Shown here: piece by piece, positions 1 to 16,194 of the stretch
Numbering within the stretch: position 1 is the stretch's first letter
Layout: the number at the start of each line of letters is the position of its first letter
NCBI GenBank assembly: GCA_003167255.1
Contig: PMTR01000165.1
Span: 47,867 to 108,079, forward strand
DNA from: Bryobacterales bacterium
Lineage (GTDB): Bacteria > Acidobacteriota > Terriglobia > Bryobacterales > Bryobacteraceae
DNA length: 60,213 nt
Direction of reading: 5' to 3'
Made by a program: the position numbers and the translations under genes
The notes under the pieces: generated by a model
What the model saw: only the letters and a program-made list of their open reading frames with translations
Told to the model about the DNA's origin: nothing
Database searches by the model: none

Positions 1-679
1 GCTCGATGGTTTCGAGCGTGGCCTTGGGACCCACCGAGCAATTGAGACCGATGGCATCCACCGGCCAGGAATTCATCTCGCGCGTGAAGGTCTCGGTATC
101 GGTGCCGCCAGGCAAGTGGCCGAAGTCGTCGATGGTGACCTGCGCGACGATCGGGATCGAGTCGCCGCCGGCTTCACGGGCCGCCAGGACGGCTTCGCGC
201 AGCTCGTCGAGATTGCCGAAGGTCTCAAGGATCAACAGATCGGCCCCGGCTTCGATCAGGGCTTCGGCCTGCTCGCGGAAAATGCCGCGCGCCTCGGTGA
301 AGGAAGTGGGGCCGAGCGGTTCAATGCGCACGCCCAGCGGCCCGATGGCGCCGGCCACAAAAGCGCCTTCGCCGGCTGCTTCGCGCGCCAGGCGTACGCC
401 GGCCTGGTTGATGGCCTTCAACTTCTCCGCTACCCCGAAAGCCGAGAGGCGCGCGCGGTTGGCGCCAAAGGTGTTGGTTTCGAGAATTTCGGCGCCGGCC
501 TTGACGTACTCCTGGTGGATCTGGCGGACCAGGTCGGGCTGGGAGAGGTTCAGCTCGTCGAAGCAGCGGTTGATGAAGACGCCGCGGGAGTAAAGCATGG
601 TGCCCATGGCGCCGTCGGCCACGATGACCCGGCGGGATAACTGTTCACGAAACTCCTGGGCACGATTTGGTGTCTTCAT
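1..679 (-). CDS. Homocysteine S-methyltransferase domain protein (MetH/YitJ type), 3' end beyond window
   Basis: The gene starts with ATG at 679 and runs off the left edge, so only about 226 N-terminal residues are visible. The protein opens with a short lead-in, then DGAMGTMLY, and continues through ETNTFGANR and GAIGPLG to GLNCSVGP. This is the order of the homocysteine S-methyltransferase barrel, and the Cys of GLNC is the first zinc ligand that activates homocysteine thiolate. The enzyme would transfer a methyl group to homocysteine to make methionine in the cytoplasm. Whether it continues into a methylenetetrahydrofolate reductase domain (YitJ type) or into full cobalamin-dependent MetH cannot be told from this fragment. 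The downstream zinc cysteines lie outside the window. Confidence 0.88.
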   Translation of the reverse strand, partial: MKTPNRAQEFREQLSRRVIVADGAMGTMLYSRGVFINRCFDELNLSQPDLVRQIHQEYVKAGAEILETNTFGANRARLSAFGVAEKLKAINQAGVRLAREAAGEGAFVAGAIGPLGVRIEPLGPTSFTEARGIFREQAEALIEAGADLLILETFGNLDELREAVLAAREAGGDSIPIVAQVTIDDFGHLPGGTDTETFTREMNSWPVDAIGLNCSVGPKATLETIE

Positions 680-741
680 GGGGAACGGATCGCAAGAGCC
701 GTTCAGCGCGGCAAATGCGACATTTCCGATTTTAGCTCAAA

Positions 742-787
742 GTGGGACAGCCTCCTGGCCTGGTAGCGCCGGCGGTCTTGCCGCCGG
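742..787. repeat. Partial GTGGGACAG-type repeat and adjoining GC hairpin
   Basis: The motif GTGGGACAG, which begins the long intergenic repeats elsewhere in the window, is followed by a hairpin with arms CCGGCGG and CCGCCGG at 769-787. It lies between the divergently read methyltransferase start and the receptor stop. It looks like a truncated or related copy, but only the first nine bases match closely. Confidence 0.45.
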
Positions 788-798
788 TGTTTGCCGGC

Positions 799-3060
799 CT
801 ACCGCTCGAATACCAATCCCGCCGAGGGCAGGATCGGGAACAGCTTATCGAGCGTGACGTAGGCCTGCTTGGTGCTGGTGGTGTAGCCGTCGAAGCTCTC
901 AAATACGTAGTTGGTGCGGTTGGTCAAATTGATCAATTCGCCGTAGAGCGTCAGCTTCCACTTGTCGTGCGTCCAGGCTTTATTGACGCGGAAATCGGCG
1001 CGCGAATAGGGGCCCAGGCGCAACTGGTCGCGGCTGTTCGAAAGGTAGTAGAGGGTTCCACTCTGCCGCAGGTAACCGGGAATGGGGAAGCCGGTGCCAT
1101 AGCTCCATTTCAGGCTCAGGTTGATGCTCGGCCGCAGCCGGTAGCCGCCATAAACGTTGACGGTGTGGCGCTGATCGTAATCGGAAGGGAAGCGCGCGCC
1201 GGTGACGCCGTCACGCATCTCGGTGCGGCCGAAGGCATAGGAGACCCAGCCGGTGAGGCGGTTGGCGCTCGAATGCTGTAAGAAGAACTCCACGCCGCGT
1301 GCGTACCCGCGAAGCGAATTCGCGTACGGCGGGTTGATGGGCGGCGCGAAGACTTTGCCGGTGGGAAGAATGCGCGGATCGTAGAGCGGTTGGAAGATCA
1401 GATCGCGATCGGAGCGGTCGTAATATTCCGCTCGCAGGCGGGTGCGCTGGCTCAAGCGCTGTTCGATGGCGGCTTGCGCGTGAATGGAACGCTCGGGCAG
1501 CAGGTGGCGGCTGCCGAGAGGAGAAGTCAACTGCGAGATTTCGGGGTATTGCGCGTATTCGCCCCATGCCAGTTGGATGCTGGTGGACGACGTGACGCCG
1601 AATGCGGCCGAGGCCGAAGGCGAAACCGTCGACACCGTGTCGATGGAGTGATGGTCCCAACGCGCGCCGGCGGTGAAGCGCAGGCGTCCGGAAAAAGCAT
1701 TCCAGGATTGCTGCAGGTAACCGCCCGCCAGCAGCGCGTTGCCGTTGAAATGGTCCAGCACGCTGGGCGCGGTGACCACGGTCTGGTACTGGTCGGAGAA
1801 GCCCTGGTCGCGCAACTGGCGCAACGACCAGCCGCCTTCCAGCGGGCTCTTGGAATTCCACATCCAGGTGGCCGAGCCGTTCCAGACCCACTCGCCGTAA
1901 AAGCCGCCGCTGGTGGGCAGCTTGTTGGGGTTCTGGTCGTTGAATTTTTCGCGCATCCAGGCGAAATGGTTGACGATCAGCAGCCGCTCGACCGGCGAGT
2001 AGCGCCATCCGAGATTGGCCAGCGTGTAGTGGTAGCCGGCCGTGACGATCGAGTTGATACCTAGATTCGTGCCCACACTGGCGCGGTTGAGGTCGGAAAA
2101 GCTCTCCAGAAAATAGAGTGTGATGTTGTTCTTGGGAGTGAGGTCGTAGGTGAGGCGCGTCTGTACATCTTCCAGTCCGAAGATCAGCGTGGTGTCCGGG
2201 AAGGTGCGCGCCAGGATGTATTGCAGGTAGCTCTTGCGCACCACCGCCAGCCAGCTTCCGCGCTTCTTCTTGCCGAACGGGCCCTCGCCCACCAGGCCTG
2301 CGTTGGAAACGCTGGCGGCCAGGCGGAATGTGGTGCCGGTGCGGCTGCCATCTCGCGTGGTGACATCGAGGACGCCCGCGGAGCGATCGCCGAAGCGCGC
2401 GGGGAACGCGCCCTCATGGAGTTCCATCTCATCCACCATGTCGCCATCGAAGGTGCTGCCGGTGCCGCTGAGGCTCTGGCCCTGAATCATGTGAAACGGC
2501 TCGTGCAGCAGCACGCCATCGACGTACAGGCCGATGCGGTCGAAATCGGCCCCGCGGAGCGAAAAGCGGGCGTCGAAATCGTTGTTGGATGAGACGCCGG
2601 GAAGGCTCTGCACCGCGCGAAGCGGGTCGTCGGCCAGCACGCTGGCGAGGTTCTTGGCATCGTTGCCGGCCAGAACCAGTGCGGCGGGGCTGTCGGCGCG
2701 CGCGGCTTCGAACGGATCGGCCTTGGCTTCCACGGTATCGGTCTGGTGAAAGGTGTCGGGGCTGAGGATCACTTCGAAATCCTTGATGTCGCCGGCGTCG
2801 AGACGGAAGGCCTTCTTGATGAGGTGATAGCCCACGGTGGAGACGTTAAGGACGTAGTCGCCCGGCGCCACCTCCTTGAGCATGAAGTGGCCGGTCGAAT
2901 CCGTGGTGGTGCGATAGCTGCCGCCACCGAGCAGGATTTCCACCTTGGCCAGGGCCTCACCGCCGCGCGCGTCGACCACTGACCCGCGGACTTCGCCCAG
3001 GGTCTGCGCCTGGGCTGAGCACGTCAGGGCCAGAGCCCCGAAAACAAGCAACCGAAGCAT
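799..3060 (-). CDS. TonB-dependent receptor with carboxypeptidase-regulatory-like N-terminal domain
   Basis: The 753-residue protein begins with a signal peptide ending near CSAQAQ. Residues about 22-105 form a carboxypeptidase-regulatory-like (transthyretin-like) domain, with the pattern GEVRGSVVDARGG and GHFMLKEVAPGDYVLNV. A plug domain follows at roughly 120-240 (LPGVSSNNDFDARFSLRG, then YVDGVLLHEPFH), and the rest is a barrel rich in aromatic alternating strands. This is the outer-membrane receptor architecture common in Acidobacteriota and Bacteroidota, which imports ligands using TonB energy. No SusD partner is adjacent, so the ligand cannot be named. It ends about 120 bp from the methyltransferase start and shares its orientation. 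Confidence 0.88.
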   Translation of the reverse strand: MLRLLVFGALALTCSAQAQTLGEVRGSVVDARGGEALAKVEILLGGGSYRTTTDSTGHFMLKEVAPGDYVLNVSTVGYHLIKKAFRLDAGDIKDFEVILSPDTFHQTDTVEAKADPFEAARADSPAALVLAGNDAKNLASVLADDPLRAVQSLPGVSSNNDFDARFSLRGADFDRIGLYVDGVLLHEPFHMIQGQSLSGTGSTFDGDMVDEMELHEGAFPARFGDRSAGVLDVTTRDGSRTGTTFRLAASVSNAGLVGEGPFGKKKRGSWLAVVRKSYLQYILARTFPDTTLIFGLEDVQTRLTYDLTPKNNITLYFLESFSDLNRASVGTNLGINSIVTAGYHYTLANLGWRYSPVERLLIVNHFAWMREKFNDQNPNKLPTSGGFYGEWVWNGSATWMWNSKSPLEGGWSLRQLRDQGFSDQYQTVVTAPSVLDHFNGNALLAGGYLQQSWNAFSGRLRFTAGARWDHHSIDTVSTVSPSASAAFGVTSSTSIQLAWGEYAQYPEISQLTSPLGSRHLLPERSIHAQAAIEQRLSQRTRLRAEYYDRSDRDLIFQPLYDPRILPTGKVFAPPINPPYANSLRGYARGVEFFLQHSSANRLTGWVSYAFGRTEMRDGVTGARFPSDYDQRHTVNVYGGYRLRPSINLSLKWSYGTGFPIPGYLRQSGTLYYLSNSRDQLRLGPYSRADFRVNKAWTHDKWKLTLYGELINLTNRTNYVFESFDGYTTSTKQAYVTLDKLFPILPSAGLVFER

Positions 3061-3120
3061 GAATACGAATGATGATACCGCATGGCGCCCACTCTGACTT
3101 CCTCGACTTCGCGCCGAAAA

Positions 3121-3272
3121 GTGGGACAGACCATCGGTTTTTGTGGTCTGTCGCAGGGGGGCTTCGGCCGCGAAATTTCACGAAAAAGTCGGGGAGCCTG
3201 GATGTCGACGGGCGGGCTGGGCAGCACCGGAAGCCGGCTGAAGCCGGCTGCGGCCAGAATTGGCCGCCCCAC
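3121..3272. repeat. 152-bp interspersed intergenic repeat (GTGGGACAG...CGCCCCAC), copy 1
   Basis: This block starts GTGGGACAGACCATCG and ends GGCCGCCCCAC. It contains a strong palindrome, GCCGGCTGAAGCCGGC, next to GGCCAGAATTGGCC. A second copy of exactly the same length lies inverted at 55208-55359 and matches closely along its whole length. Related, more divergent copies lie at 41029-41115, 52205-52376 and 60179 to the window end. It fills the gap between the receptor and the secreted repeat protein. Confidence 0.8.
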
Positions 3273-3281
3273 TTTGCCAGC

Positions 3282-4109
3282 TCAGTTCGCCCCGACGCCG
3301 AATCGGACGTTCAGCTTGTCGAGTTCCTTGCGGTAGAGCCGGTTCTCCGGATAATCGTGCGCCAACTCTCCCAACAGCCTTTGCGCCTCGCGTGGCTTTT
3401 TCTCGCGCAGATCGATGATCCCCAGAAAGACCTTGGCGAGCGGCTTGAGGTAATGCCCATCGCGGGCCACCAGTTCGAGTTGATGCACGCCCCGCTGCTT
3501 GTCGCCCTCGACGCTGTCGAAATGCACGAACCAGCGGATGAAGAACGGCAGGCTGCCGATCATGTATTCGGAGAAGCCGGAGGTGAGGTAGGCATCGTAA
3601 AACGTGGGATCGAGTTTGAGCAGGCGCTGCGCGTAACCGTTGCCACGTTTGGCGGGCGAGAGGCTTCCGATCTGGCGTTTCTCCACCAGCGCCATGTAGT
3701 CCGTGGCAACGCCGCTGGCCACCACCATGGCAAATAGCGCGGACCGGTCATTGGGATTGACTTTGAGCGCCGCCTCGGCGCGGTGTTGCGCGTCGTCCAA
3801 TGCCGCGAAAAACTGCTTGCGGATGGCGGGGTCGGGGTCGGGGCGGGTCTTCGCGACGATGCGGTCGTCATCCATCAGGAATTCGCTCTCCAGGACGCTC
3901 AGACGGTCGAGTTCATAGAAAAGGTACGCGGAAGCCTGGAGGGCGTACGGCAGCGGTTCCTCGGGATGGACCGCGATATAGCGATCGAGCAACCCATGGG
4001 CGGCGGGGAAATCGAAACTGTACAGACGGCCAAGGGCCTCGTCGAGCGTTACCGGATCGGCGGCCAGCGCGGGAAAACACAGGACAGCGGCGAATAGCCA
4101 GAGTCGCAT
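3282..4109 (-). CDS. Secreted TPR-like protein at the 3' end of the kdp operon
   Basis: This 275-residue protein has a signal peptide (MRLWLFAAVLCFPALAA) and a helical mature part with TPR-like pairs, such as LDEALGRLYSFDFPAAHGLL and AEAALKVNPNDRSALFAM. I do not recognise a named family beyond a tetratricopeptide-like fold. Its start lies five bases after the stop of the upstream KdpD-N protein, so it is probably translated from the same mRNA as the potassium genes. That placement suggests an envelope role linked to potassium stress, but the sequence shows no catalytic motif. It could also simply be carried along by operon structure. Confidence 0.7.
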   Translation of the reverse strand: MRLWLFAAVLCFPALAADPVTLDEALGRLYSFDFPAAHGLLDRYIAVHPEEPLPYALQASAYLFYELDRLSVLESEFLMDDDRIVAKTRPDPDPAIRKQFFAALDDAQHRAEAALKVNPNDRSALFAMVVASGVATDYMALVEKRQIGSLSPAKRGNGYAQRLLKLDPTFYDAYLTSGFSEYMIGSLPFFIRWFVHFDSVEGDKQRGVHQLELVARDGHYLKPLAKVFLGIIDLREKKPREAQRLLGELAHDYPENRLYRKELDKLNVRFGVGAN

Positions 4110-4114
4110 TCAGC

Positions 4115-5221
4115 TCACGTCGTACCGGAACGGCGCCGTTCAGCCACAATCGTAATCTGCAGATCGCGCGCCTGGCGCACTACCCGCTGCACCACGGTCT
4201 CGCGGAACGCTTTCCACCACGGCTGCGGCAGAGAGCGTCCCATGAAAATCTGGGTGATCTGCTTCGAGCGCGCAAATTCGGTAATGGCGCGCGCCGCATC
4301 CTTTGATTGTACGACATTCGTCTCGATGCGCAGGTTGCGGGCAAAGCTCATGTGGCGCTCCACCGCCTCGCGATCGGTCTCATTCACCTTCACGTGCACC
4401 GCCAGACAGTCGGCGTGAAGATAATCGGCCACCCGCTTGCCGCGCCGGATCAGTATGGCGGACGAAGGCCGGCCGGTGAGGCAGATGAGGATCCGCTCGG
4501 TGCGGGCGGGAGCCTGGGAATCTGGCTGACCGCCGGGAGTTTCGCCGGCGCCAGCCGGGTTGGCGACCAGTTTCTCTTCCACCTCGTACGCGGTGTGGCG
4601 CAGCGCCATTTCGCGGAGCGCCGTGAGGTTAGTCTCGGTGAAGAAATTCTCCATGGCGCGGCGCGCCTTTTCGGGGGCATAGACCACGCCGCGCTCCAGC
4701 CGGTTGCGAAGGGCGCGGGGAGTGAGATCGATGAACACCAGTTCGTCGGCTTCGTCCACCACCCAGTCGGGTACGGTTTCGCGCACATGAATGCCGGTGG
4801 CATGAAAGACCTGGTCGTTGAGGCTCTCCAGGTGCTGGACATTCATGGTGGTGAGAACGTCGATTCCGGCATCCAGCAGCGCGTGAACATCCTGCCAGCG
4901 TTTGAGGCGTTCAGATCCCGGCACGTTGGTGTGGGCCAGTTCGTCCACCAGGGCCACGGCCGGTTTGCGCCGCAGCACCGCTTCGACATCCATCTCTTCG
5001 AACTCTGAGCCGTTGTACGTCAGGATGCGGCGCGGGATCGCTTCCAGACCTTCGGTTTGTACAATGGTTTCCTGGCGGCCGTGCGACTCAAAGTACCCGA
5101 TGACAATGTCGACGCCCTTCTGCCGCAGGGCTTGCGCCTCCTGGAGCATGCGGTACGTCTTGCCCACGCCGGCGGCATATCCCAGATAGATCTTGAGCCG
5201 CCCCTTGGTCCCTATGCTCAC
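4115..5221 (-). CDS. KdpD N-terminal sensor/USP protein, canonical copy (no kinase domain)
   Basis: The 368-residue protein matches only the cytoplasmic N-terminal half of KdpD. Residues about 8-215 hold the KdpD domain with a good Walker A (GYAAGVGKTYRML) and the signature VDELAHTNVPGS. Residues about 245-362 form a UspA-like domain (RILICLTGRPSSAILIRRG, ITQIFMGRS). There is no transmembrane segment, GAF or histidine-kinase region. In E. coli these parts are joined in one 894-residue KdpD, which senses low potassium and turgor. Here the kinase half is encoded separately at 13706-15136. The start overlaps the stop of the upstream paralogue by four bases (ATGA), which implies coupled translation in the kdp operon. 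Confidence 0.88.
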   Translation of the reverse strand: MSIGTKGRLKIYLGYAAGVGKTYRMLQEAQALRQKGVDIVIGYFESHGRQETIVQTEGLEAIPRRILTYNGSEFEEMDVEAVLRRKPAVALVDELAHTNVPGSERLKRWQDVHALLDAGIDVLTTMNVQHLESLNDQVFHATGIHVRETVPDWVVDEADELVFIDLTPRALRNRLERGVVYAPEKARRAMENFFTETNLTALREMALRHTAYEVEEKLVANPAGAGETPGGQPDSQAPARTERILICLTGRPSSAILIRRGKRVADYLHADCLAVHVKVNETDREAVERHMSFARNLRIETNVVQSKDAARAITEFARSKQITQIFMGRSLPQPWWKAFRETVVQRVVRQARDLQITIVAERRRSGTT

Positions 5222-6324
5222 GGCTTGCCCCCGTGCGGAAACAGCCGCACATCAAAACCATCGGCGCCATCGATCAGGCGGTCCACCGGAGTGCGCCCGA
5301 ACCACGCCCTCTGCGGGCGGCCCGAGTGCCCCAGGAAGAGTTGCGTGATGCGCTGCTCGCGCGCGAAATCCAGAATGGTCTGGACAAAGTCGAGGCCTTG
5401 CAGGCAGTGTACTTCCGCGCCCAGTTCGCGCGCCAGCGCAAGGTTGGCGTCGAGTTTGTCGCGATCGGCCCCGCGAAGATCGGGCTGCTCCACGTAGGCC
5501 ACCAGCAGCGCGCCGTGGAAGCGGGCTTGGTTGCGCAGACCGCTTCTGAGCATTTCGCGAGCGTCGCTGCGCGCGGTGATACAGACCAGGATGCGCTCCT
5601 GCGCGCCCCACCGCGCGGCCACGTCATGCGCCTCGAGATAATCCTGCAACTGGCGGTCCACCACGTCGGCGGCCAGCAGCAGGGCCAGTTCGCGCAGTTC
5701 CGCCAGGCTCCGGGAATCGGAGATATCCTTGCTCCCGGTGCGACCCACAAGCGCTTCGGGCGGGGCGTCCACCACCTCGATTTCATCGGCTTCGTGGAGA
5801 AATTCCTGGGGAATGCTGTTGGCGGCGCGCTTTCCGGTGATCCGCTCCACTTCGGCCTGCTGCTCGCGGATATGCTGGATGTTGACGGCGCTGATCACCG
5901 CGATGCCGCGGTCCAGGAGTTCCCGCACATCCTGCCACCGCTGCGGATTGCGGCTCCCGGGAGGATTATCGTAGGCCAAACCATCCACCAGGCAGACCTG
6001 CGGATGGCGGCGGAAGAGCGCGGTCATATCCATTACTTCGTAGCTCCGGCCCGCGTGTTTCGTCGAGATGGAAGGCACTACGTCCAGGCGCGCGAGGATC
6101 TCCGCGATGTCCGGCGTGACCTCGCGCTGTACCGCGCCTACCACCACGTCCTGCCCGCGCTCCTTGCGGCGCCGGCCCTCATCGAACATGCGGAACGACT
6201 TGCCGACACGCGAGGCGTAGCCCAGGAAGATTTTGAGGCGTCCGCGGCTCTCGCGGCGCTCCGTGTCCTGGACGCGGCGCAGCAGCTCTTCGGGATCGGG
6301 TCTGCGATCGGCCGGAGTCGGCAT
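5218..6324 (-). CDS. KdpD N-terminal sensor/USP protein, divergent copy with altered ATP-site motifs
   Basis: This is a second 368-residue KdpD-N plus UspA-like protein, directly upstream of the first and in the same operon. It keeps the overall fold (RGRLKIFLGYAS, NPQRWQDVRELLDRGIAVIS, VNIQHIRE), but the signature residues differ. Walker A reads GYASRVGKS, with Arg where Gly is usual, and the VDELAHTN motif reads VDGLAYDN. These changes suggest weakened or lost nucleotide handling and a regulatory or scaffolding role beside its canonical neighbour. An N-terminal extension of about 25 residues is charged. The gap to kdpC upstream is about 105 bp, without an obvious terminator. Confidence 0.85.
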   Translation of the reverse strand: MPTPADRRPDPEELLRRVQDTERRESRGRLKIFLGYASRVGKSFRMFDEGRRRKERGQDVVVGAVQREVTPDIAEILARLDVVPSISTKHAGRSYEVMDMTALFRRHPQVCLVDGLAYDNPPGSRNPQRWQDVRELLDRGIAVISAVNIQHIREQQAEVERITGKRAANSIPQEFLHEADEIEVVDAPPEALVGRTGSKDISDSRSLAELRELALLLAADVVDRQLQDYLEAHDVAARWGAQERILVCITARSDAREMLRSGLRNQARFHGALLVAYVEQPDLRGADRDKLDANLALARELGAEVHCLQGLDFVQTILDFAREQRITQLFLGHSGRPQRAWFGRTPVDRLIDGADGFDVRLFPHGGKP

Positions 6325-6429
6325 CTCTCACAGGATAATCCGGCGCGCCGGCATTATGTGTGACAAACCTGAAATCCAGACTGGGTTCTTTGCCGGTCAT
6401 TCCTAAACAAGGCTGGCTCACCAATTACT

Positions 6430-7011
6430 TTATTTCTTGAAAGGAGCGGCCTGGTCCAGGGCCAGGTTCAGTCCCAGCACATTGACGCGCGGCTCGCCCA
6501 AAATTCCGAACTGGCGACCGTCGGTGTGGGCTGCAACCAGTTGCCGCAAGGCATCCGGGCTCATGCCGCGCGCGGCCGCCACCCGCGTCACCTGCGCGTC
6601 CGCGGAAGCCGGGCTGATATCGGGATCAAGGCCGCTGCCGGACCCCGTCAGCAGATCGGCGGGCACTGGACCGGTGAACGTAGGATTCTCGTCGCGGAAT
6701 TTCTTGAGGTCGGCTTGGACACGATCCACCAGGGCCTTATTCGTGGGACCGAGGTTGGAGCCGCCTGAGGCAAGGCCATCGTAGCCGTCGCTTCCAGCGG
6801 CCGAGGGGCGGCCGTGGAAATACTCGGGCCGCGTGAATCTCTGACCGATGAGTTCTGAGCCGGTGGTTTTCCCGTTCGTCTGAATCAGGCTTCCGTTCGC
6901 CTGGTGCGGGAACACGGCTTTCGCCAGCCCCGTGACCAGCAGCGGATACAACACTCCGGTCAGCAGCGTGAACGCCAGGGTTACGCGAATCGCAATGATG
7001 AGCTGTTTCAT
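6430..7011 (-). CDS. kdpC: Potassium-transporting ATPase subunit C
   Basis: The protein has 193 residues, close to the usual length of about 190. It has one N-terminal membrane anchor ([21 protein letters not shown]) and the conserved periplasmic segments [31 protein letters not shown] and [15 protein letters not shown]. KdpC assembles with KdpFAB and stabilises the complex, perhaps raising ATP affinity. It follows kdpB by 13 bp in the expected F-A-B-C order. Nothing in the sequence suggests loss of function. Confidence 0.96.
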
Positions 7012-7024
7012 ATTTCTCTATCCT

Positions 7025-9136
7025 CTACGCCAGGTGCAGAAGCCCCAGCAACCGGTCGATCAGCCAGATTCCCGGGAACGGCGCGATTACGCCGCCCACG
7101 CCATAGACCAATAAATTGCGGCGCAATAGAGCCGCGGCGCTCATCGGCTTGTATTTCACGCCGCGCAGCGCCAGCGGAATCAACACGATAATAATCAGCG
7201 CGTTGAATATGACGGCGGCCAGCACGGCGCTCTGTGGGCTGTGCAGACCCATGATGTTGAGCTTGCCCATTACCGGATACATGGTCATGAACATGGCCGG
7301 CAGAATGGCGAAATACTTGGCGATATCGTTGGCGATGGAAAATGTGAAGAGCGCGCCGCGCGTCATTAGCAACTGCTTGCCGATGGCCACCACTTCGATC
7401 AGCTTGGTGGGATTGCTGTCGAGGTCCACCATGTTGCCGGCTTCCTTGGCGGCCATGGTGCCGGTGTTCATCGCCAGGCCGACATCGGCCTGCGCCAGCG
7501 CGGGAGCGTCGTTGGTGCCGTCTCCGGTCATCGCCACCAGGCGGCCCCCGGCCTGCTCCTTCTTAATGAGGTCCATCTTGTCTTTGGGAGTGGCCTGCGC
7601 CAGAAAGTCGTCAGTGCCGGCTTCGGCGGCGATGGCCGCGGCGGTCAGCGGATTGTCGCCCGTAATCATAACCGTGCGGATTCCCATGGCGCGCAGTTGC
7701 TGGAAGCGCTCGCGCATGCCACCCTTGACGACGTCCTTCAGGTGGATTACGCCCAGGGCGCGCTCGCGGTCGGCCACCACCAGCGGTGTGCCGCCGGAGC
7801 GCGAGATGCGTTCGGTGACGTCCATCAGTTCGGTGGGCGCCGTGCCGCCGTGTTCGTGTACGAACTCGATTACCGAATCAGTTGCGCCCTTGCGGATGCG
7901 GCGGGCATCAATGTCCACACCGCTCATGCGCGTCTGCGCAGTAAAGGGGATGAAGTGCGCTTCGTGTGCCGCCACTTCGCGCCCGCGAATGTTGTATTTC
8001 TGCTTGGCCAGCACCACGATGGAGCGGCCCTCGGGGGTTTCGTCGGCCAGGCTGGAGAGCTGCGCGGCGTCGGCGAGTTCCGCTTCGGTGACGCTGCCCA
8101 GCGGGATGAACTCCACAGCTTGGCGGTTCCCGAGCGTAATCGTGCCGGTCTTATCAAGCAACAACGTGTTGACGTCGCCGGCAGCCTCCACTGCCTTGCC
8201 GCTCATGGCCAGCACGTTGTGCTGCATCACGCGGTCCATGCCGGCGATGCCGATGGCGGAGAGTAAGCCACCGATAGTGGTGGGAATGAGGCAGACCAAC
8301 AAAGAAATAAGTACAGTGACGGACGGTGCCGTTCCGCTGCCGCTGGCATTGACGCTGAAGATCGCGAACGGGTGCAGCGTGACCACCGCCAGCAGGAACA
8401 CCAGCGTCAGTCCTGCGATCACGATATTGAGCGCGATCTCGTTGGGAGTCTTCTGCCGTTCCGCGCCTTCCACCAGCGCGATCATGCGGTCCAGGAACGT
8501 CTCGCCCGGGTTGGACGTGATCTTCACCTTGATCCAGTCGGAAAGCACCTTGGTGCCGCCGGTCACGGCACTGCGGTCGCCTCCCGATTCGCGAATCACC
8601 GGGGCGGATTCGCCGGTGATGGCCGATTCGTCCACGCTGGCGATGCCTTCGATGACGTCGCCGTCGCCGGGGATAGTTTCACCCGTCTCCACCCGCACCA
8701 GGTCGCCGCTGCGCAGTTCGGTGGCGGCCACGGTCTCAGTCTTGCCGTTGCCGTTCACCAAGCGGCGCGCGGTAGTTTCCGTCTTGGTCTTGCGCAGCGT
8801 GTCGGCCTGGGCCTTGCCGCGGCCTTCCGCCATGGCTTCGGCGAAGTTGGCGAACAGCACCGTAAACCACAGCCACAGCGTGATCTGGAAGGTGAACCCG
8901 GCAATGCCGGCGCCGGAAGCGATGTCTCTGGCCGCCAGGATCGTGGTCATCGCCGCGCCAACTTCCACCACGAACATGACCGGGTTCTTCATCATGGTGC
9001 GCGGATTCAACTTGACGAACGAGTCCTTGAGGGCCCGCTTCATGATGGTCTGGTCGAACAGCGGGCGTGCCCGCGAGCCCTTCTTGGGCATCAGCGTCAC
9101 GGGGTCGGCGGTAGGAGGAGTCATAGTGGTCGCCAT
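7025..9136 (-). CDS. kdpB: Potassium-transporting P-type ATPase, catalytic subunit B
   Basis: About 703 residues of the P-type ATPase KdpB. The TGES-type loop reads ITGESAPV, the phosphorylated Asp lies in DKTGTITLG (near residue 328), and the hinge motif is [17 protein letters not shown]. An upstream in-frame ATG at 9166 exists, but it overlaps kdpA by 23 bp. I chose the ATG at 9136 because GGAG lies about ten bases upstream and the start then falls just after the kdpA stop. The protein hydrolyses ATP to drive high-affinity potassium uptake through KdpA in the inner membrane. Confidence 0.96.
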
Positions 9137-9143
9137 GGGTTCA

Positions 9144-10874
9144 TTAGCTCCAAAGTCTGCCTGCATGCATGAGGAAGTGCTCCACGATCGGTCCCAGCGA
9201 CAGCGCCGGGAAAAACGTGAGTGCGCCCACGATCACCATCACACCCACTAGCAGGGCTACGAATAACGGTCCGTGCGTGGGGAAGGTTCCGGCCGATACC
9301 GGGACCAGCTTCTTCTGTGCCAGGCTGCCGGCGGCGGCCAACAGCGGGATCAACATCAGGAATCGGCCGGACAACATCGCCAATCCCAGGGTGGTGTCGA
9401 GGTAGGGCGTGTTGCCGTTGATGCCTCCGAATGCGCTGCCGTTGTTGCCGGTGGCACTGGTGTATGCGTAGAGAACCTCCGAAAAGCCGTGCGGCCCATG
9501 ATTCCCAAGGCTGTTGCCGACGGTGCCCAGGTTGGCGCCGGCGCCCGCGAATCCCAGAATCGTGAACGCCAGCACCAGCACCGCCAGCATCATCATCTTG
9601 ACTTCCTTCTGTTCGATCTTCTTGCCCAGGTATTCGGGCGTGCGGCCCACCATCAGGCCGGCGATGAACACCGCCAGCACAGCAAACATCAGCACGCCGT
9701 AGAGCCCCGAGCCCACACCGCCGAAAATCACTTCGCCCAGTTCGATGTTGATTAGCGGCACCAGGCCCGCCAAGGGCGTCAGGCTGTCGTGCGCATTGTT
9801 GACCGCGCCGCAACTGGCATCGGTGGTAACGGTGGTGAACAGAGCGGAATTGGCGATCCCGAAGCGGACCTCTTTGCCCTCCATGTTGCCGCCGGATTGC
9901 GTGTCGGTGGCGGCGCTGGCGATCCCGAGCTTGGTCAGGTTCGGATTGCCGGCTTGTTCGAAGTAATAAGTAACCCACACCCCGGCAAAGAACAGCACGC
10001 TCATGGCGGCGAAGATGGCCCAGCCTTGCCGCGTGTCCTTCACCATCTTGCCGAAGGTGTAGGTGAGGCCCGCCGGAATGATGAAGATGAAGATCATCTG
10101 CAGAAAGTTCGAGAACGGTGTGGGGTTCTCGTAGGGATGCGCCGAGTTGGCGTTGGTGAAGCCGCCGCCGTTGGTGCCGATCATCTTGATGGCTTCCTGC
10201 GACGCCAGCGGGCCCTGCGGAATGGTTTGTACGGCGCCTTCCACCGTGGTGGCCTTAGTGTACGAATCGAAATTCTGAATCGCTCCCTGCGAAACCAGCA
10301 GCAGCGCGCCCACCACCGAAAGCGGCAACAGCACGTAAATCGTCGCCCTGGTGAAATCCACCCAGAAGCTGCCCAGCGTCTTCACCGAGTGACGCGCGAA
10401 CCCGCGGACGAAGGCGATGGCCACCGAGATTCCCACCGCGGCGGACCAGAAGTTGTGCGTGGCCAGCCCGATCATTTGCGTGAGATAGCTCATGGTGGTT
10501 TCGGGTGTGTACGATTGCCAGTTGGTGTTGGTTGTGAAACTCGCCGCCGTATTGAACGCCAGGTGTTGCCCCACGTTGCCGAGGCCCTGGGGATTGAGCG
10601 GCAGCCACTGCTGGATGCGCTGCAGCACGTACGTGAACAGCAGGGTGACGACGCTGATCAGCAACACGCCGCCGGCATACCGGGTCCAGTGCTGCTCGCC
10701 ATTTTCATCGATGCCGCACACCTTGTAGATGCCCGTTTCGAGCGGCCGCAGCAGACCACGCATCCACGTGCGCTCTCCGGCGAAGACCTTCGCCATGTAG
10801 GCGCCCAGGGGCTTGGTGAGCGCCAGCAAGACCAAAAAGAACAGCGCGATTTGAAGCCATCCGTTGCCAGTCAT
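9144..10874 (-). CDS. kdpA: Potassium-transporting ATPase, channel-like subunit A
   Basis: The 576-residue integral membrane protein shows KdpA landmarks: [17 protein letters not shown] in the first pore region, [19 protein letters not shown] in the second, and GNNGSAFGG in the third. KdpA is a member of the SKT channel superfamily and binds and translocates potassium. It starts nine bases after the kdpF stop, preceded by AGGAGAGG. The length is slightly above the E. coli protein (557). Confidence 0.97.
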
Positions 10875-10883
10875 GAGCCTCTC

Positions 10884-10967
10884 CTAGAACTTTTCCGGAC
10901 GAAGCAGTGCGTAGAACAGATACGCGCCCAGCCCCGCCGCGACTACCAGTGCCAATATGTATTCCAT
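10884..10967 (-). CDS. kdpF: Potassium-transporting ATPase small subunit F
   Basis: A 27-residue hydrophobic peptide, MEYILALVVAAGLGAYLFY followed by ALLRPEKF. This is the standard KdpF pattern: one membrane helix and a C-terminal LLRPEKF. KdpF is a lipid-like stabiliser of the KdpFABC complex. AGGAG lies six bases upstream of its ATG. It sits between the other 27-residue membrane peptide and kdpA, in the canonical position. Confidence 0.95.
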   Translation of the reverse strand: MEYILALVVAAGLGAYLFYALLRPEKF

Positions 10968-10975
10968 GGGTTCTC

Positions 10976-11059
10976 CTAGAGGCGGTCGCAACCCTTCACA
11001 AACGCCCAAGCGACGAAGAAAAACAGAATCGCGAGCAACACGAACACGAGATCTAGCAT
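10976..11059 (-). CDS. 27-residue membrane peptide upstream of kdpF
   Basis: The reading frame from the ATG at 11059 to the TAG at 10976 encodes MLDLVFVLLAILFFFVAWA followed by FVKGCDRL. It is a single predicted membrane helix with a short polar tail ending in GCDRL. It lies seven bases after the upstream gene and eight bases before kdpF, with the kdpF ribosome-binding site overlapping its stop. From memory, peptides with a similar C-terminal xCDRL tail occur before kdpF in other phyla, but their function is not established. It may be an extra small subunit. Confidence 0.7.
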   Translation of the reverse strand: MLDLVFVLLAILFFFVAWAFVKGCDRL

Positions 11060-11066
11060 GATTCAC

Positions 11067-11516
11067 CTATTCGACGTGTATTAGAGCGACTTTATGGCCG
11101 TCGCGGGCCAGGGAGCGCGCGAGTTGCTCTTCCGCGGTCCGCCACAAATGCTTGAAGGTCCCCACCAGGATGGTGGATGCGGGCTTGAGGGCATAGCGGA
11201 ACCCTTCTTCGCGGCCGCGCGCCAAGACGACTTGGGGATTGACAGGCAACACGCATTGGCTGGCCAGCTCCACCAGTTGCTCCACCAGGTGCGCATGCAC
11301 AACAGTGGGGCAGACGAAAGGCAGGGGGTACGGTAGTGTGTGTACGGCAACCAGGCTGACGCGGGCGTTCAAGCCCGCGGTGAGGATGGGGACGCGCTTC
11401 AGAACCGCCGCCGTAACCGAGGGTTCGGTATAGGGGATCACCACCTCCAACTCGCTGCCGACCCCGTCGGTCTCCAGACAACCCGGGTCAATCCGAAACT
11501 CGCCGCGCGTCTCCAT
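11067..11516 (-). CDS. Small UspA-like cytoplasmic protein, first gene of the kdp operon
   Basis: The 149-residue protein has alternating strand-helix segments (SELEVVIPYTEPSVTAAVL, VSLVAVHTLPYPLPF, STILVGTFKHLWRTAEEQLA, KVALIHVE) that resemble a universal-stress-protein fold. A nucleotide-binding glycine motif is not evident. It heads the kdp gene run and ends seven bases before the 27-residue peptide. Its start lies immediately after two tandem copies of an 11-base sequence. A UspA-like protein fits the USP domains of the two KdpD-N proteins downstream, but the assignment rests only on fold-like pattern. Confidence 0.65.
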   Translation of the reverse strand: METRGEFRIDPGCLETDGVGSELEVVIPYTEPSVTAAVLKRVPILTAGLNARVSLVAVHTLPYPLPFVCPTVVHAHLVEQLVELASQCVLPVNPQVVLARGREEGFRYALKPASTILVGTFKHLWRTAEEQLARSLARDGHKVALIHVE

Positions 11517-11542
11517 AGTTGAGCCTTAGTTGAGCCTTGCAG
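11517..11542. repeat. Tandem 11-base duplication before the kdp operon start
   Basis: The 11-base unit AGTTGAGCCTT occurs twice in tandem directly before the first codon of the minus-strand operon. Read on that strand, each unit contains AAGG, so the only Shine-Dalgarno-like bases are duplicated within the leader. Confidence 0.7.
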
Positions 11543-11562
11543 TTCTACAGTAAGCAGCGGGA

Positions 11563-11580
11563 CATAAAGAAGTCGTAAAG
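11563..11580 (-). promoter_or_regulatory. Candidate KdpE operator upstream of the kdp operon
   Basis: On the minus strand the heptamers CTTTACG and CTTTATG occur as direct repeats 11 bases apart, about 50-60 bases upstream of the first gene's start. OmpR/PhoB-family regulators such as KdpE bind T-rich direct repeats with 11-base spacing. The site lies in the 93-base region shared with the divergent DUF2254 gene. This is a pattern match, not a proven operator. Confidence 0.4.
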
Positions 11581-11609
11581 AAAGGATCAGGATTGAATTA
11601 ATTGTACGC

Positions 11610-12974
11610 GTGGGGCTGATCCACTACACTGAAACAGAAATAGCCGTGGGCAAAAGCCTTCCATTGATGCTTCGCCACGCAATGTATAACCTGCGTGGCG
11701 GCTTTTTGATTCGCCCGCTCACCATCGCGCTGGCGTTGGGTTGCGCGGGCGCATTCCTGCCATGGTTGGAAGGGGAGTTTCCGGCCGTCAGCGCCTGGGT
11801 GCCCACGTTCCTGTTCCCCTCGCACGCCGACCCGCAAGTCGCCCAGGTCATCCTGGCGGGAATCGCCGCCTCCATCATGACGGTGGTGTCCATCGTGTTC
11901 GCCATCCTGCTGATGACGCTCACCCTGGCGTCCATGCAGTTCTCCCCGCGCATCATCGTCAGCTTTTCCAGAGACCGCGTGACACAATGGACGCTCGGTA
12001 TCTTCCTCGGCACCTTCTCGTACTGCATGGCGGCGCTCCCGGCGGCGCACTCCCTCCCTCACCCCTTCGCGCCAGTGGCCACCGTTCTGGGTGCGATGGC
12101 GCTGGCGCTGGTCTGCGTCGGTCTGCTGCTCTTTTTCATTCACCATATCTCCCAGGCCATCAGCGTCAATCACATCGTCGACAGAATCGCGGAAGAAACC
12201 GAAGCCATGATCGATGAGCTGATGCCAGGGCCGCGACGGCTGATCCGCTTGAAGTATGCTGAACCGCTCACGCCCAACCCGAGCGAACAGGCCGTTTTGA
12301 GCGATGTTTCCGGCTACATCCGCTTCATCGATACGCGACGCCTGGTCGCCCTTGCGAAGCACTACCACGTCAGCATCCGCGTTCTGCGGCGGGTCGGCCA
12401 CTTTGTTCCGGCGGGAATCCCACTGATGATGGTCTCAAAGGGAAACCGCCTGCCCCCCGAAGGAACCGCCGAGTTGCTTGCCGCGTTCGACTTTGGCCCG
12501 GCCAGAACGTTGCAGCAGGACGTGGAATTTGGCGTCCTGCAGATTGTCGATATTGCGTTGAAGGCGATCTCGCCAGCCGTAAACGACCCCACCACCGCCA
12601 TCAACTGCATCGATCAATTGAGCCGCATTCTGATCCGCTTTGCGTCCCGGGAGCCGCCCGAGGACCTGCTCTACGATCCGCCGGGCATCGTTCGCGCCAG
12701 CATTGGATGGATCCACTTCGAGCGCCTGCTGAACGCAGCCTTTGAACAGATCCGCATGTATTCGAAGACGGACGTAGCCGTCAGCTTGCGGTTGCTGCGA
12801 GCCCTCGGCGACATCGCCGCCTCGACGCCCGATCCGGAGTTCCGCCAGATACTCGTCGAGCACGAAATGCGGATTGTGGCAGGCTGCGCCGAAAAGCTCA
12901 GTGAAGAGGAACTGAGAGCGTTACGCGCTCGTCAGGCAGCGATCGAGAGCGCCACCGCCATCTGGCAACCATAG
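11610..12974 (+). CDS. DUF2254 family membrane protein, divergent from the kdp operon
   Basis: The protein of about 454 residues has four N-terminal membrane segments (around residues 32-55, 70-105, 125-145 and 150-172) and a soluble C-terminal part with the family motifs AISPAVNDPTTAINCIDQLS and DVEFGVLQIVDIALKA. DUF2254 proteins are predicted inner-membrane proteins of unknown function. The listed GTG at 11610 has no clear ribosome-binding site; ATG codons at 11667 or 11682 are possible starts. Its position between the kdp operon and its regulators is suggestive of an ion-related role but proves nothing. Confidence 0.8.
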   Translation: MGLIHYTETEIAVGKSLPLMLRHAMYNLRGGFLIRPLTIALALGCAGAFLPWLEGEFPAVSAWVPTFLFPSHADPQVAQVILAGIAASIMTVVSIVFAILLMTLTLASMQFSPRIIVSFSRDRVTQWTLGIFLGTFSYCMAALPAAHSLPHPFAPVATVLGAMALALVCVGLLLFFIHHISQAISVNHIVDRIAEETEAMIDELMPGPRRLIRLKYAEPLTPNPSEQAVLSDVSGYIRFIDTRRLVALAKHYHVSIRVLRRVGHFVPAGIPLMMVSKGNRLPPEGTAELLAAFDFGPARTLQQDVEFGVLQIVDIALKAISPAVNDPTTAINCIDQLSRILIRFASREPPEDLLYDPPGIVRASIGWIHFERLLNAAFEQIRMYSKTDVAVSLRLLRALGDIAASTPDPEFRQILVEHEMRIVAGCAEKLSEEELRALRARQAAIESATAIWQP

Positions 12975-13016
12975 ATCAGAACACTGGCGACCCGCTACCG
13001 GCGTCGGAGAGATCCC

Positions 13017-13709
13017 TCAGCCCTCGGTGGAACTCGCGAACCGGTAGCCCACCCACGGCTCCGTCACGATGTATTTCGGCTTGGCAGGATTGGCCTCGAT
13101 CTTCTTGCGCAACTGGTTAACGAATACCCGCAGGTATTCCGGCTCGTCGCCATAATCCGGCCCCCAGACAGCTTGCAGCAGCTCGCGATGGGTCACCGGC
13201 TTGCCGGCGTGTGCCACCAGGCAGCGCAGCAGATCGAATTCCTTGGGCGTCAGCCGCACGTCTTTGCCGCGCGCATGAACGCGCCGGCTCTGGAAGTCGA
13301 CTTCCAGGTCCTCCGAATGGAACGCCTGCGGTCCGCCTTCCGGGGACGTCCGCCGCAGCGCCGCACGGATGCGCGCCAGCAGTTCCTCGATGCTGAAAGG
13401 CTTGGTGACATAGTCGTCGGCGCCGGCATCGAGCGCCGCCACCTTGTCCTTTTCGCTGTTCCGCACGGAAAGAATAATCACCGGAATATCGGAACCGGCG
13501 CGCAACGCCCGGCACGTTTCAAGGCCCCCCATTCCCGGCATGTTCAGGTCGAGCAGCACCAGGTTCGGCATCTCTTGCGCGGTCTTCTCGAGTGCGTCTT
13601 CGCCGGTGCGCGCTTCGATGACTTCGTAGTTGTGGCCCACCAGCGTCGCCTTCATCACCCGGCGAATCTGCGGGTCGTCATCCACCACCAGGATTTTCCC
13701 GGCGCTCAT
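13017..13709 (-). CDS. kdpE: KdpE-type response regulator (OmpR family)
   Basis: The 230-residue protein has a receiver domain with the acidic pair at residues 10-12, phospho-acceptor D54 in LLDLNMPGM, and Lys in VTKPFSIEEL. A winged-helix DNA-binding domain follows (LTPKEFDLLRCLVAHAGK, YLRVFVNQLRKKIE, EPWVGYRF). It is the expected activator of kdpFABC under potassium limitation. Its start overlaps the kinase gene stop by four bases, so the pair is coupled. The pair lies on the far side of the divergent DUF2254 gene from kdpFABC. Confidence 0.92.
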   Translation of the reverse strand: MSAGKILVVDDDPQIRRVMKATLVGHNYEVIEARTGEDALEKTAQEMPNLVLLDLNMPGMGGLETCRALRAGSDIPVIILSVRNSEKDKVAALDAGADDYVTKPFSIEELLARIRAALRRTSPEGGPQAFHSEDLEVDFQSRRVHARGKDVRLTPKEFDLLRCLVAHAGKPVTHRELLQAVWGPDYGDEPEYLRVFVNQLRKKIEANPAKPKYIVTEPWVGYRFASSTEG

Positions 13710-15136
13710 GTATGGCCGCCTCCGGCGCTCGCTACCAGCGAAAAATAGAACGCCGAACCCTGACCCGGCTCGCTTTCCACCCAGATCCGTTCGCCGTGCG
13801 CTTCCACGATCCCTTTGGCGATTGCCAGTCCCATCCCGGTTCCTTTGGTGTCGAAGCGATGCCGCCGGCCGCGGAAGAATTTCTCGAAGATCCGGACGCG
13901 TTCGTTCTCCTCGATTCCCGGTCCGCGGTCCGCCACCCCGATCACGATTTTCCCACTCTTCAACTCCGCCGATATGTCGATCGGCGAACCTTCCGGCGTA
14001 TACTTGAGCGCATTCTCCACGAAGTGCTTAACCACCTGCATGGCGAAATCGTGGTCCGCCTCCGCCGCCGGCAGTCCGTCCGGCACCCGCACCTTCATCG
14101 GCCGATTCTGAATCGCCGGCGCCAGATCCGCGAGCGCACCCGAAATCAGTTCAGCCACCTCCACCAGTTGCTTTTCCAAATGCAGTTTGCCGGCCTCGAT
14201 GCGCGCCATCTCGATGACTTCCGCCGCCAGTTGATTCAGCCGGTCGGTCTCTTCGTTGATGATGGTGAGAAGTTCGTTGTCGGCCGCCGCGGAGTTCCCC
14301 AGCAGGCTGGTCACCGCGGCTTTGATCGACGTGAGCGGCGTCTTGATATCGTGCGCCAGCGAATCCAGCAGCGCTGACTTCAAGACTTCGCCCTGCCGTG
14401 CCGCCTCCGCGTGGCTCGCCTCCTCGCTGGCCCGCGCCCGCTCGATGGTGAGCGAGATCAGATTCACGATGGCACACACCATCTGCTCCGAGGGCAGCCG
14501 CCCGATGAGCGTCATGCTCCCCAACGGACGCAAGCCCAGCCGCACCGGCGCCAGCGCTACAACCCGGTCCGAATCGACTGATACGGCCTCGATCTCCGCC
14601 GCTGCCAGAAGTTCGTGGTCCGTCACCACGTTGCTCTCCGGCCCCGAGCGAAAAACCTCCTCGGTGGAACGATAATACAGCGCCGCCGCCCGGCAACCGA
14701 ACACCCGCACTACCGTGTGCACGAATTCCCGGATGGTCTTTCGCGCGTTGCCGCTGAGCATCATCGACTGCACCAGAGCGTACAGCCGCTCGATTTCTGT
14801 GCGCCGGGCTTCCGCTTCCGCCGCCCTCCGGCGCGCTCGCGCGGAAAGCTGGCTGGCCGTCACCGCGGTCGCCAGAAATGCCGCTAGGGCGATCCAGTTC
14901 TGCGGATCCTGAATGGTGAGTCTCCCGATCGGCGGCAGGAAGAATATGTTGAACCCCAGCGCCGCCGCCACCGATGCGACCGTGGCTTCCGCCAGGCCCC
15001 ACCACGCCGAGATTCCCAGAATGGCCAACAGCAGGCTCAGCGCCACCGTCGTATTGTTCACGGCCAGCGCCGTGCCGTAGAGCCCAAGGATTCCCGCGAT
15101 GATCGCGATCGACGCGGCAAACCGCAATGCTTTCAT
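13706..15136 (-). CDS. KdpD-type histidine kinase lacking the N-terminal sensor domain
   Basis: The 476-residue protein begins directly with the KdpD four-helix membrane region (DUF4118, about residues 5-95, with FNIFFLPPIGRLTIQDPQNW). A GAF-like segment (about 118-240) and a kinase core follow: H-box SLAHDIKTPLTS with H262, an N-box containing ENALKYTPEGSPI, and GTGMGLAIAKGIVEAHGG-like G motifs (here GTGMGLAIAKGIVEAHGE). It equals the C-terminal half of E. coli KdpD. The missing KdpD/USP domains are encoded twice, at 4115-6324. It probably phosphorylates KdpE, the overlapping downstream gene. Confidence 0.9.
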   Translation of the reverse strand: MKALRFAASIAIIAGILGLYGTALAVNNTTVALSLLLAILGISAWWGLAEATVASVAAALGFNIFFLPPIGRLTIQDPQNWIALAAFLATAVTASQLSARARRRAAEAEARRTEIERLYALVQSMMLSGNARKTIREFVHTVVRVFGCRAAALYYRSTEEVFRSGPESNVVTDHELLAAAEIEAVSVDSDRVVALAPVRLGLRPLGSMTLIGRLPSEQMVCAIVNLISLTIERARASEEASHAEAARQGEVLKSALLDSLAHDIKTPLTSIKAAVTSLLGNSAAADNELLTIINEETDRLNQLAAEVIEMARIEAGKLHLEKQLVEVAELISGALADLAPAIQNRPMKVRVPDGLPAAEADHDFAMQVVKHFVENALKYTPEGSPIDISAELKSGKIVIGVADRGPGIEENERVRIFEKFFRGRRHRFDTKGTGMGLAIAKGIVEAHGERIWVESEPGQGSAFYFSLVASAGGGHT

Positions 15137-15201
15137 AGGCGCACTTTGACGCCGCCTGGCCTTGCGGCCCGGAAATTTTCAGCGTAACCGAGCTTATTGT
15201 A

Positions 15202-15975
15202 CTAGGTCTTGAATTTCCGGCCGAGACCAATCAGGGCCGCCAGGCCCAGGCTCAACAGCCCAAAGGTGGCAGGCTCCGGCACGAAGTCGAGGGTGACCGT
15301 CGAATCGGCGATCAGCTTTTCCTTCACGTTGTAGTCGATGGTCACATTCCGGTCGGGGTTGTTCACCGGGTCATAGCCGGAAAGATCGGCGGTAAATTGA
15401 ACGTCTCCGGCGCGGATGCGAGTTTTCAGGAAAACACCCGTCGTGTCAAAAGCATCTTCGACCAGAATCGAGTCGGGACCCACCAGACCCAAGAGATACG
15501 GCATCAAATCCAGCGACGACGAAAACGTCACGTCCACCCTATCGAGCGTGACACCGCTAATATCCTTGAAAGCCAGAGTGACTTTAAAATTCTCATTGTC
15601 GACCCCAAACACCGGGTTGGTCTGAGCCCTGCTCGGGTTATCCCCCCCTGTATCCGTCACGCTCCTGTTGGAAGCGAGGCTGAATGCGTAGCTCAAGTCG
15701 TACTCCGCCGAAATCAAATCTTCGCCCGGCGGCAGAAACATCACTCCGCTATTCGGCTCAAACATGTTCGGCCTGTCGGCGACTTCGAGGCCGCTTAAGG
15801 TCGAACTCCCATCAGTGAATGTACTGGAGGTGATCACCTTTTTGTTGTTTGCGTCCAGCGTGTAACTCGCGCTGGCGAAATTATTGTTCGTGATGCTGTC
15901 GGAATAGGTGATGATTCCAGCGGAAGCGGTGATACAAAATCCCGCCACCATGGCCACTGCGCGGACAAGCCTCAT
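15202..15975 (-). CDS. PEP-CTERM sorting-domain secreted protein
   Basis: About 257 residues from the ATG at 15975, chosen because GGAG lies seven bases upstream; a longer frame to 16032 lacks such a site. The signal peptide is MRLVRAVAMVAGFCITASAG. The body is beta-rich with no recognised catalytic motif. The C-terminus reads VPEPATFGLLSLGLAALIG followed by a basic tail, the PEP-CTERM signal processed by exosortase and used for surface or exopolysaccharide association. No exosortase gene is in the window. The function of the body is unknown. Confidence 0.85.
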   Translation of the reverse strand: MRLVRAVAMVAGFCITASAGIITYSDSITNNNFASASYTLDANNKKVITSSTFTDGSSTLSGLEVADRPNMFEPNSGVMFLPPGEDLISAEYDLSYAFSLASNRSVTDTGGDNPSRAQTNPVFGVDNENFKVTLAFKDISGVTLDRVDVTFSSSLDLMPYLLGLVGPDSILVEDAFDTTGVFLKTRIRAGDVQFTADLSGYDPVNNPDRNVTIDYNVKEKLIADSTVTLDFVPEPATFGLLSLGLAALIGLGRKFKT

Positions 15976-16129
15976 AACTTTTTCTCCAAGCATGCTCCAG
16001 AGGAAATAGTACCTTTTTGCCTGAAACAGCACCCAAGATTATATCAGAACGTCGGGTTATGCCGCCACGCAAGTTGCATTGGTGGCAAGTGGCATTGGGA
16101 TACTACTAGGGTTGCTTACCCTTACTAGT

Positions 16130-16162: not shown

Positions 16163-16194
16163 CTGGACAACTAAAGTCCAGCCAGGCAGCCCAT

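Follow-up and report, generated by a model that had tools for sequence, protein, structure and literature searches.

In the kdp operon of a Bryobacterales bacterium (GenBank assembly GCA_003167255.1), two 368-amino-acid proteins of the KdpD N-domain (KdpD-N)/USP type are encoded in tandem on the minus strand, one canonical (here called CAN; 4115–5221, GTG start) and one with altered active-site residues (here called DIV; 5218–6324). All positions are those of the window, the whole stretch of 60,213 nucleotides that was analysed (contig PMTR01000165.1, positions 47,867 to 108,079 of the forward strand). As judged from the predicted genes, three proteins, a histidine kinase, CAN and DIV, together make up KdpD here, and with somewhat better than even confidence we propose a model in which CAN would be a stand-alone kinase for the pump subunit KdpB and DIV its catalytically dead partner, which would regulate CAN.

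The N-domain of Escherichia coli KdpD has been described in a 2024 paper as an atypical serine kinase (ASK) which phosphorylates KdpB at Ser162 at high K+ and halts the pump, the N-domain alone being sufficient for this phosphorylation (PMC11018627). The same paper reports that E. coli KdpD interacts with KdpB, that the short KdpD/Usp form of Deinococcus geothermalis is stimulated by cyclic di-adenosine monophosphate (c-di-AMP) and that the serine-kinase domain is often a separate chain in Acidobacteriota. A first-pass annotation of the window had viewed the tandem proteins as a catalytic plus degenerate pair of histidine-kinase sensor halves only. The description as a catalytic and a degenerate member is still the best one, while the sensor-half view does not hold in that restricted form, as the domain phosphorylates KdpB as a serine kinase (PMC11018627) and the pair is therefore better read as a kinase and a pseudokinase for the pump.

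Results

Both tandem open reading frames (ORFs) and their motifs are present as first annotated. CAN carries the Walker A motif GVGKT (5156–5170) and the Walker B motif VDELAHTN (4925–4948); in DIV the corresponding motifs are RVGKS (residues 39–43; 6196–6210), with the P-loop Gly replaced by Arg and Lys and Ser retained, and VDGLAYDN (residues 113–120; 5965–5988), with the Walker B Asp retained, the catalytic Glu replaced by Gly and the His by Tyr. The two proteins are 31% identical and share the architecture of KdpD-N plus USP without a histidine kinase part. Their PF02702 (KdpD) scores of 316.1 bits for CAN and 197.4 bits for DIV are above the curated Pfam cut-off of 26.1, the USP match falls just under its Pfam cut-off in both, and both remain below the curated cut-off of 550 of NF038185 (KdpD_non_kinase; CAN 373.6, DIV 226.2 bits). 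The structure model of DIV (mean predicted local distance difference test score, pLDDT, 84.9; predicted template modelling score, pTM, 0.61) finds as its best match in the PDB the KdpD N-domain 2r8r (E 2.4e-19), followed by 7ji4, a c-di-AMP-bound KdpD USP domain and the first USP-domain match. The result for the N-domain of DIV agrees with a sequence search, by which CAN also matches 2r8r; the CAN structure model, weaker with a mean pLDDT of 73.6, was not used. The DIV stop and the CAN start overlap by 4 nucleotides (5218–5221, minus strand), which makes translational coupling likely.

Residues tested in E. coli KdpD, where E110A, D109A and a Walker A triple mutant abolish KdpB phosphorylation and W39A/R190A almost does so (PMC11018627), were mapped onto distinct sequences, namely 87 DIV, 74 CAN, 18 solo short forms and 13 full-length KdpD; most sequences derive from metagenome assemblies, and the counts refer to sequences and do not stand for independent events. 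In the CAN family, D109, E110, H113, R190, E61, H63 and R65 are present in 74/74, and G36, K37, T38 and an aromatic residue 39 in 73/74, the remaining row being gapped. The DIV family retains G36, K37, a Ser or Thr at position 38 (mostly Ser) and D109 in all 87 sequences, so that ATP binding by DIV, as far as these residues indicate, may well persist. The earlier expectation that the nucleotide site is weak or lost is thus not borne out; lost is instead the catalytic Glu110 in 71 of the 87 (Gly in 64, Gln in 5, Ala and Pro in one each; Glu in 16), while Glu61 is Gln in every DIV. Nearly all DIV have changes at the CAN-invariant Glu61, His63, Arg65 and His113, the latter being retained in four. 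The stretch of E. coli residues 196–202 is largely deleted, with 200–202 missing in 87/87; the DIV alignment around residues 190–205 is uncertain because of this deletion, and in this segment, which is hard to align, R190 is aligned in 48/87. Its partner in the adenine pair, residue 39, is mostly Phe or Leu in DIV. As the Walker B Glu is lost in the DIV of the window and in 71 of the 87 family members, DIV is not classified as an ASK, whereas CAN is; the solo short forms keep the catalytic Glu throughout (18/18). CAN fits the serine kinase expected for KdpB, and DIV, as far as residue conservation can tell, a conserved pseudokinase and catalytically dead sister of CAN.

The orthologues of DIV do not jointly restore the two motifs, a check which the first-pass annotation had itself put forward. 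GVGK(S/T) is found in 54/87, but G34 and E110 are retained together in none, and the DIV of the window has both changes. Arg in place of G34, the RVGKS type, occurs in 33 of the 87; it coincides with a retained Glu in 16/33 as compared with 0/54 of the others (Fisher p ~1e-8, with related sequences counted), and on the tree the P-loop Arg amounts to one change and the state of the Glu to five. An altered P-loop is not confined to DIV but occurs in a full-length KdpD too: at locus L164 of genome G218, full-length KdpD is encoded twice, the KdpD domains being separated by about 7.5 kb, and one of the two proteins reads GVGLT for GVGKT.

Ahead of the first strand, full-length KdpD begins with an RPDPDxLL-like segment. 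Scored by a pattern that was written after the sequences had been seen, this segment is present in 12/13 full-length proteins, 14/18 solo forms and 86/87 DIV and in none of the 74 CAN; the DIV of the window has it as RRPDPEELL, and residues 11–26 form a helix in the structure model. At the level of sequence the loss is reciprocal, with DIV keeping the N-terminal segment of KdpD and CAN the active site, so that each protein lacks what most single-gene forms combine.

In an unrooted tree of 91 KdpD-N domains, a branch with support of 100/100 separates the 32 DIV from all other sequences, and equally supported branches set apart the 28 CAN of pairs and the 13 full-length proteins; the 18 solo short forms require two changes. 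DIV and CAN are thus two old families and not recent copies. DIV is under purifying selection, as the first-pass annotation had anticipated should the altered motifs be conserved across species: pairwise ratios of nonsynonymous to synonymous substitution (dN/dS, Nei-Gojobori) are, over five comparisons per family, 0.14–0.26 for DIV and 0.14–0.24 for CAN, at dS values between 0.2 and 1.35, and an open frame of at least 250 amino acids is present in 81/81 DIV rows.

A scan of 84,980 species, each represented by a single genome, with the DIV alignment yielded 482 relatives, and the 80 best were retained. With profiles built here, each of the 80 loci contains a frame whose DIV score exceeds its CAN score, and the source records carry names of acidobacterial groups, including Bryobacterales, Solibacteraceae, Candidatus Solibacter, Candidatus Sulfopaludibacter, Acidobacteriaceae, Terriglobia and one Vicinamibacterales. 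A relative of the DIV of the window was found on no viral contig; among PLSDB plasmids, 440 records matched, the eight best of which are 37–39% identical, seven annotated as KdpD and one unannotated. DIV was therewith seen only in Acidobacteriota among the best 80 of 482 relatives and the best eight of 440 PLSDB records, and other phyla are possible.

CAN follows directly downstream of DIV on the same strand in 70 of the 80 loci, and in the ten remaining ones another gene comes after DIV or the contig ends soon after. Among 67 measurable pairs, the window included, a possible CAN start overlaps or abuts the DIV stop in 36 and lies within 30 nucleotides of it in 61. A whole-genome search of 50 DIV genomes, made up of the ten without adjacent CAN and 40 others of the 80, recovered a canonical match in 49, in numbers equal to DIV (1+1 in 45 genomes, 2+2 in four). 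It showed no full-length KdpD; the matches lie in open frames of at most 631 amino acids. Nine of the ten genomes without adjacent CAN carry the canonical gene at a distance, and all nine genes are CAN-type, with CAN-profile scores of 588–610 bits as compared with 467–653 for locus-complete pair members and 249–386 for solo and full-length forms; DIV and CAN are hence kept in step even when apart. In one further assembly (G057; L053 and L052) DIV and CAN are on separate contigs, one of which reads kdpK-kdpE-kdpA-kdpB-kdpC-DIV.

Of 61 genomes searched whole, the own one and relatives, 24 have PF02702 matches. Score, position and frame length assign to 17 of the 24 both a DIV-type (151–207 bits) and a canonical match (277–318 bits). 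Of the other seven, five show a single long match, which has 905–922 amino acids in four of them and is truncated by a contig end in the fifth; a solo short form and a fragment account for the last two. A larger sample comprised 297 genomes from the phylum, and 105 of these exceed the PF02702 cut-off, with the full-length form in 42, the short canonical form in 64 and DIV in eight. All eight DIV genomes, the own one included, hold the short canonical form (8/8 versus 56/97, Fisher p=0.02, relatedness not corrected for).

That KdpD is split was already claimed by the first-pass annotation, and this part stands, as DIV and CAN are the only PF02702 matches in the own genome (98.85% complete) and hence no full-length KdpD was found in it. 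The kinase half is, however, not located elsewhere as assumed, but within the window at 13706–15136 (minus strand), where it combines DUF4118, HisKA and HATPase domains without a KdpD-N domain. Its best NCBIfam match covers positions 420–882 of the 895 of the KdpD model, that is the C-terminal half, and it is the best of five DUF4118 matches in the own genome. Its gene shares 4 nucleotides with that of a KdpE-like response regulator (13017–13709, minus strand; PF00072 receiver and PF00486 DNA-binding domain), the best NCBIfam match of which is KdpE with 222 bits at a cut-off of 325; kinase half and regulator both score below the curated cut-offs of their NCBIfam models. Homologues of the regulator, 59–72% identical, adjoin the kinase half in relatives. 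Both genes precede kdpA in the same orientation, the end of the regulator gene being 2.1 kb from kdpA. A separate DUF4118 histidine kinase and a KdpE-like regulator thus occur in a genome in which no full-length KdpD was found.

Pump genes and neighbourhood

The minus-strand order is histidine kinase, response regulator, a 149-amino-acid ORF, kdpA (9144–10874; PF03814, 798 bits), kdpB (7025–9166), kdpC (6430–7011; PF02669, 259 bits), DIV and CAN. The Ser of the TGES motif of KdpB is residue 187, the equivalent of E. coli KdpB Ser162, and this target Ser is present in 43/43 loci covered by the alignment, the window included. DIV follows kdpC within 1 kb in 35 of the 80 loci, and a test for KdpA in 27 DIV genomes, mostly picked because pump genes were not visible beside the pair, was positive in 26. 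Clustering of neighbouring ORFs at 12 loci with pairs outside the kdp operon, leaving aside kdp genes and any ORFs that run antisense to the pair, revealed no neighbour shared by more than three loci.

Several side observations concern the same region. The 149-amino-acid ORF ahead of kdpA (11067–11516, minus strand) matches nothing in Pfam at E 0.01; relatives of it are near kdpA in 16/80 DIV loci, and it is therefore probably a real conserved gene, perhaps with a USP-like product, although this is a guess. The interval separating the kdpE-like gene from kdpA also contains, in the opposite orientation, a gene for a DUF2254 membrane protein (11610–12974, plus strand). A gene for a BBP2-type outer membrane porin, which may be an outer membrane route for K+, is located between kdpC and DIV in one relative (L090:8456–9946), and ORFs which resemble it by eye have the same position in three others (L095, L098 and L103). 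Two DIV genomes show two kdpA matches about 4.5 kb apart in the same orientation (G375:C301 and G410:C198), and multiple matches to kdpA also occur in several others. A single odd tRNA-like ARAGORN match with a four-base anticodon (30484–30582, plus strand) is probably spurious.

Discussion

That many Acidobacteria retain the pair suggests regulation of the active copy by the apparently dead one. In the proposed mechanism the membrane histidine kinase would work with KdpE on transcription, while CAN, a soluble protein, would by homology phosphorylate KdpB at Ser187 when K+ is plentiful and so shut the pump. DIV would bind ATP and/or a second messenger without phosphotransfer, would associate with CAN, probably as a heterodimer, and would set the activity of CAN toward KdpB, with contact, ligand and direction of control being what we infer. 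A tentative proposal, to which we give a little less than even weight, goes as far as an obligate two-subunit serine kinase, in which reciprocal loss would have divided the ancestral KdpD input domain: DIV, with its N-terminal segment and ATP pocket, would be the regulatory subunit and sense the state of the cell, and CAN, which is without the segment, would depend on DIV to phosphorylate KdpB and shut the pump.

With respect to a second messenger, the own genome encodes a c-di-AMP (diadenylate) cyclase. An Rfam scan of window positions 1–20000 returned nothing at gathering score, so no known c-di-AMP riboswitch was seen there. The c-di-AMP-binding motif of the KdpD USP domain of Firmicutes, (A/G/C)XSXSX2N...(Y/F) (PMC8214093), is partially recognizable in DIV, with a small first residue (Cys in 82/88), the Tyr in 73/88 and Thr replacing the first Ser; the second Ser and the Asn are not in register, and CAN matches less. 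In the row of Deinococcus radiodurans only the first position is matched, yet its relative from D. geothermalis responds to c-di-AMP according to PMC11018627, and the motif is thus not decisive outside of Firmicutes.

Several observations weigh against a dead regulator of a pump-directed kinase. The 16 DIV which keep Glu110 all have the P-loop Arg and five of them also keep Arg190, hence not all DIV are certainly dead. The distance matrices of DIV and CAN correlate with r=0.87 over 74 pairs, yet shared ancestry alone could yield this value. One draft assembly (G357) has a DIV without a canonical match, the sole case among the 50 genomes, another genome (G126) carries a full-length KdpD in addition to the DIV–CAN pair, and G356 is the one of the 27 genomes tested that gave no KdpA match. 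Several genomes have the pair at a distance from kdpABC, and in 3/80 loci KdpE precedes DIV within 1 kb; both arrangements would also fit a transcriptional role.

Such a role is the strongest rival, given that an action on the KdpE–DNA complex is also described for the N-domain of E. coli (PMC2714519): DIV would serve the transcription arm by binding the separate histidine kinase and/or stabilising phosphorylated KdpE on DNA, and CAN alone would handle KdpB. E. coli KdpD/1-395 alone makes kdpFABC expression constitutive, with the Usp domain as a scaffold site (PMC2714519), and the N-terminal segment of full-length KdpD is kept by DIV and not by CAN, in line with this role as are the three loci in which KdpE precedes DIV. 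On the other hand, DIV equals CAN in number and is usually near enough to it for translational coupling, it comes after kdpC far more often than after kdpE, and the solo forms, which mostly keep the segment and always the Glu, indicate that other species need no separate DIV; we consider a transcriptional function unlikely, though worth keeping in mind. Less probable still is a competitive protector that docks on the A-domain of KdpB without phosphate transfer and shields the Ser from CAN. The common fold, with the KdpD N-domain 2r8r as best PDB match of the DIV model, the retained core of the ATP site in combination with a mostly lost catalytic Glu, and the interaction between KdpD and KdpB described for E. 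coli (PMC11018627) would suit a protector, but with Glu61, His63, Arg65 and His113 altered and residues 196–202 largely deleted, docking on KdpB may itself be lost.

An enzymatically active DIV with altered chemistry or a different substrate, to which the invariant Lys, Ser/Thr and Asp and the 16 sequences with Glu110 might point, is quite improbable given that Glu110 is gone from 71 of the 87 and Glu61 has become Gln in all. A decaying duplicate without a role, as the motif loss in the DIV of the window taken by itself might suggest, is hardly credible for a single family with its own invariant residues, low dN/dS, uninterrupted open frames and retention together with the canonical copy in 49/50 genomes, also where the genes lie apart. 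Drift or decay of DIV is refuted by family tree, dN/dS and pairing, unless the sample is badly biased.

If CAN is a kinase regulated by DIV as a pseudokinase, this would explain why two KdpD-N genes are kept in many Acidobacteria, and with DIV a Walker A/B kinase family would include a conserved pseudokinase. The authors of the 2024 report on the serine kinase activity of KdpD note that its control still needs further characterisation (PMC11018627), and a naturally separated, soluble and probably co-translated pair of a live and a dead protein provides a direct test of the control of the KdpD kinase without membrane parts. A description of DIV was not found in the open-access literature, a scope which most subscription journals are outside of, and the main text of PMC11018627 contains none of the terms paralog, pseudo, duplicat or "second copy".

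The division of KdpD as such is already known, including from Acidobacteriota, Deinococcus and cyanobacteria, where, as here, KdpD-N is encoded in the pump operon with kinase and regulator genes nearby (PMC5716572, PMC11018627). Different here is the extra altered KdpD-N paralogue kept in step with the first, of which the parts of these reports at hand make no mention. The closest individual proteins are the short KdpD/Usp serine kinases, such as KdpD of D. geothermalis (PMC11018627) and the 'KdpD-like non-kinase potassium sensor' of NF038185, which stand alone and have the KdpD-Usp order of CAN and DIV. The D. radiodurans and Synechocystis plasmid loci likewise have a short KdpD downstream of kdpC. 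CAN shares the catalytic positions tested with these short forms, whereas here there are two proteins, both under the NF038185 cut-off, the upstream one of which, DIV, lacks the catalytic set. With the full-length tandem serine/histidine kinase of E. coli, the domain and its motifs are common and DIV keeps the RPDPxxLL segment, but transmembrane and histidine kinase parts are missing from the pair and catalytic and N-terminal features are distributed over two proteins. Pseudokinase–kinase pairs in general consist of a dead paralogue beside a live one, with the core of the ATP site retained; in contrast to those, the putative live enzyme here is a Walker A/B serine kinase and not of the eukaryotic type.

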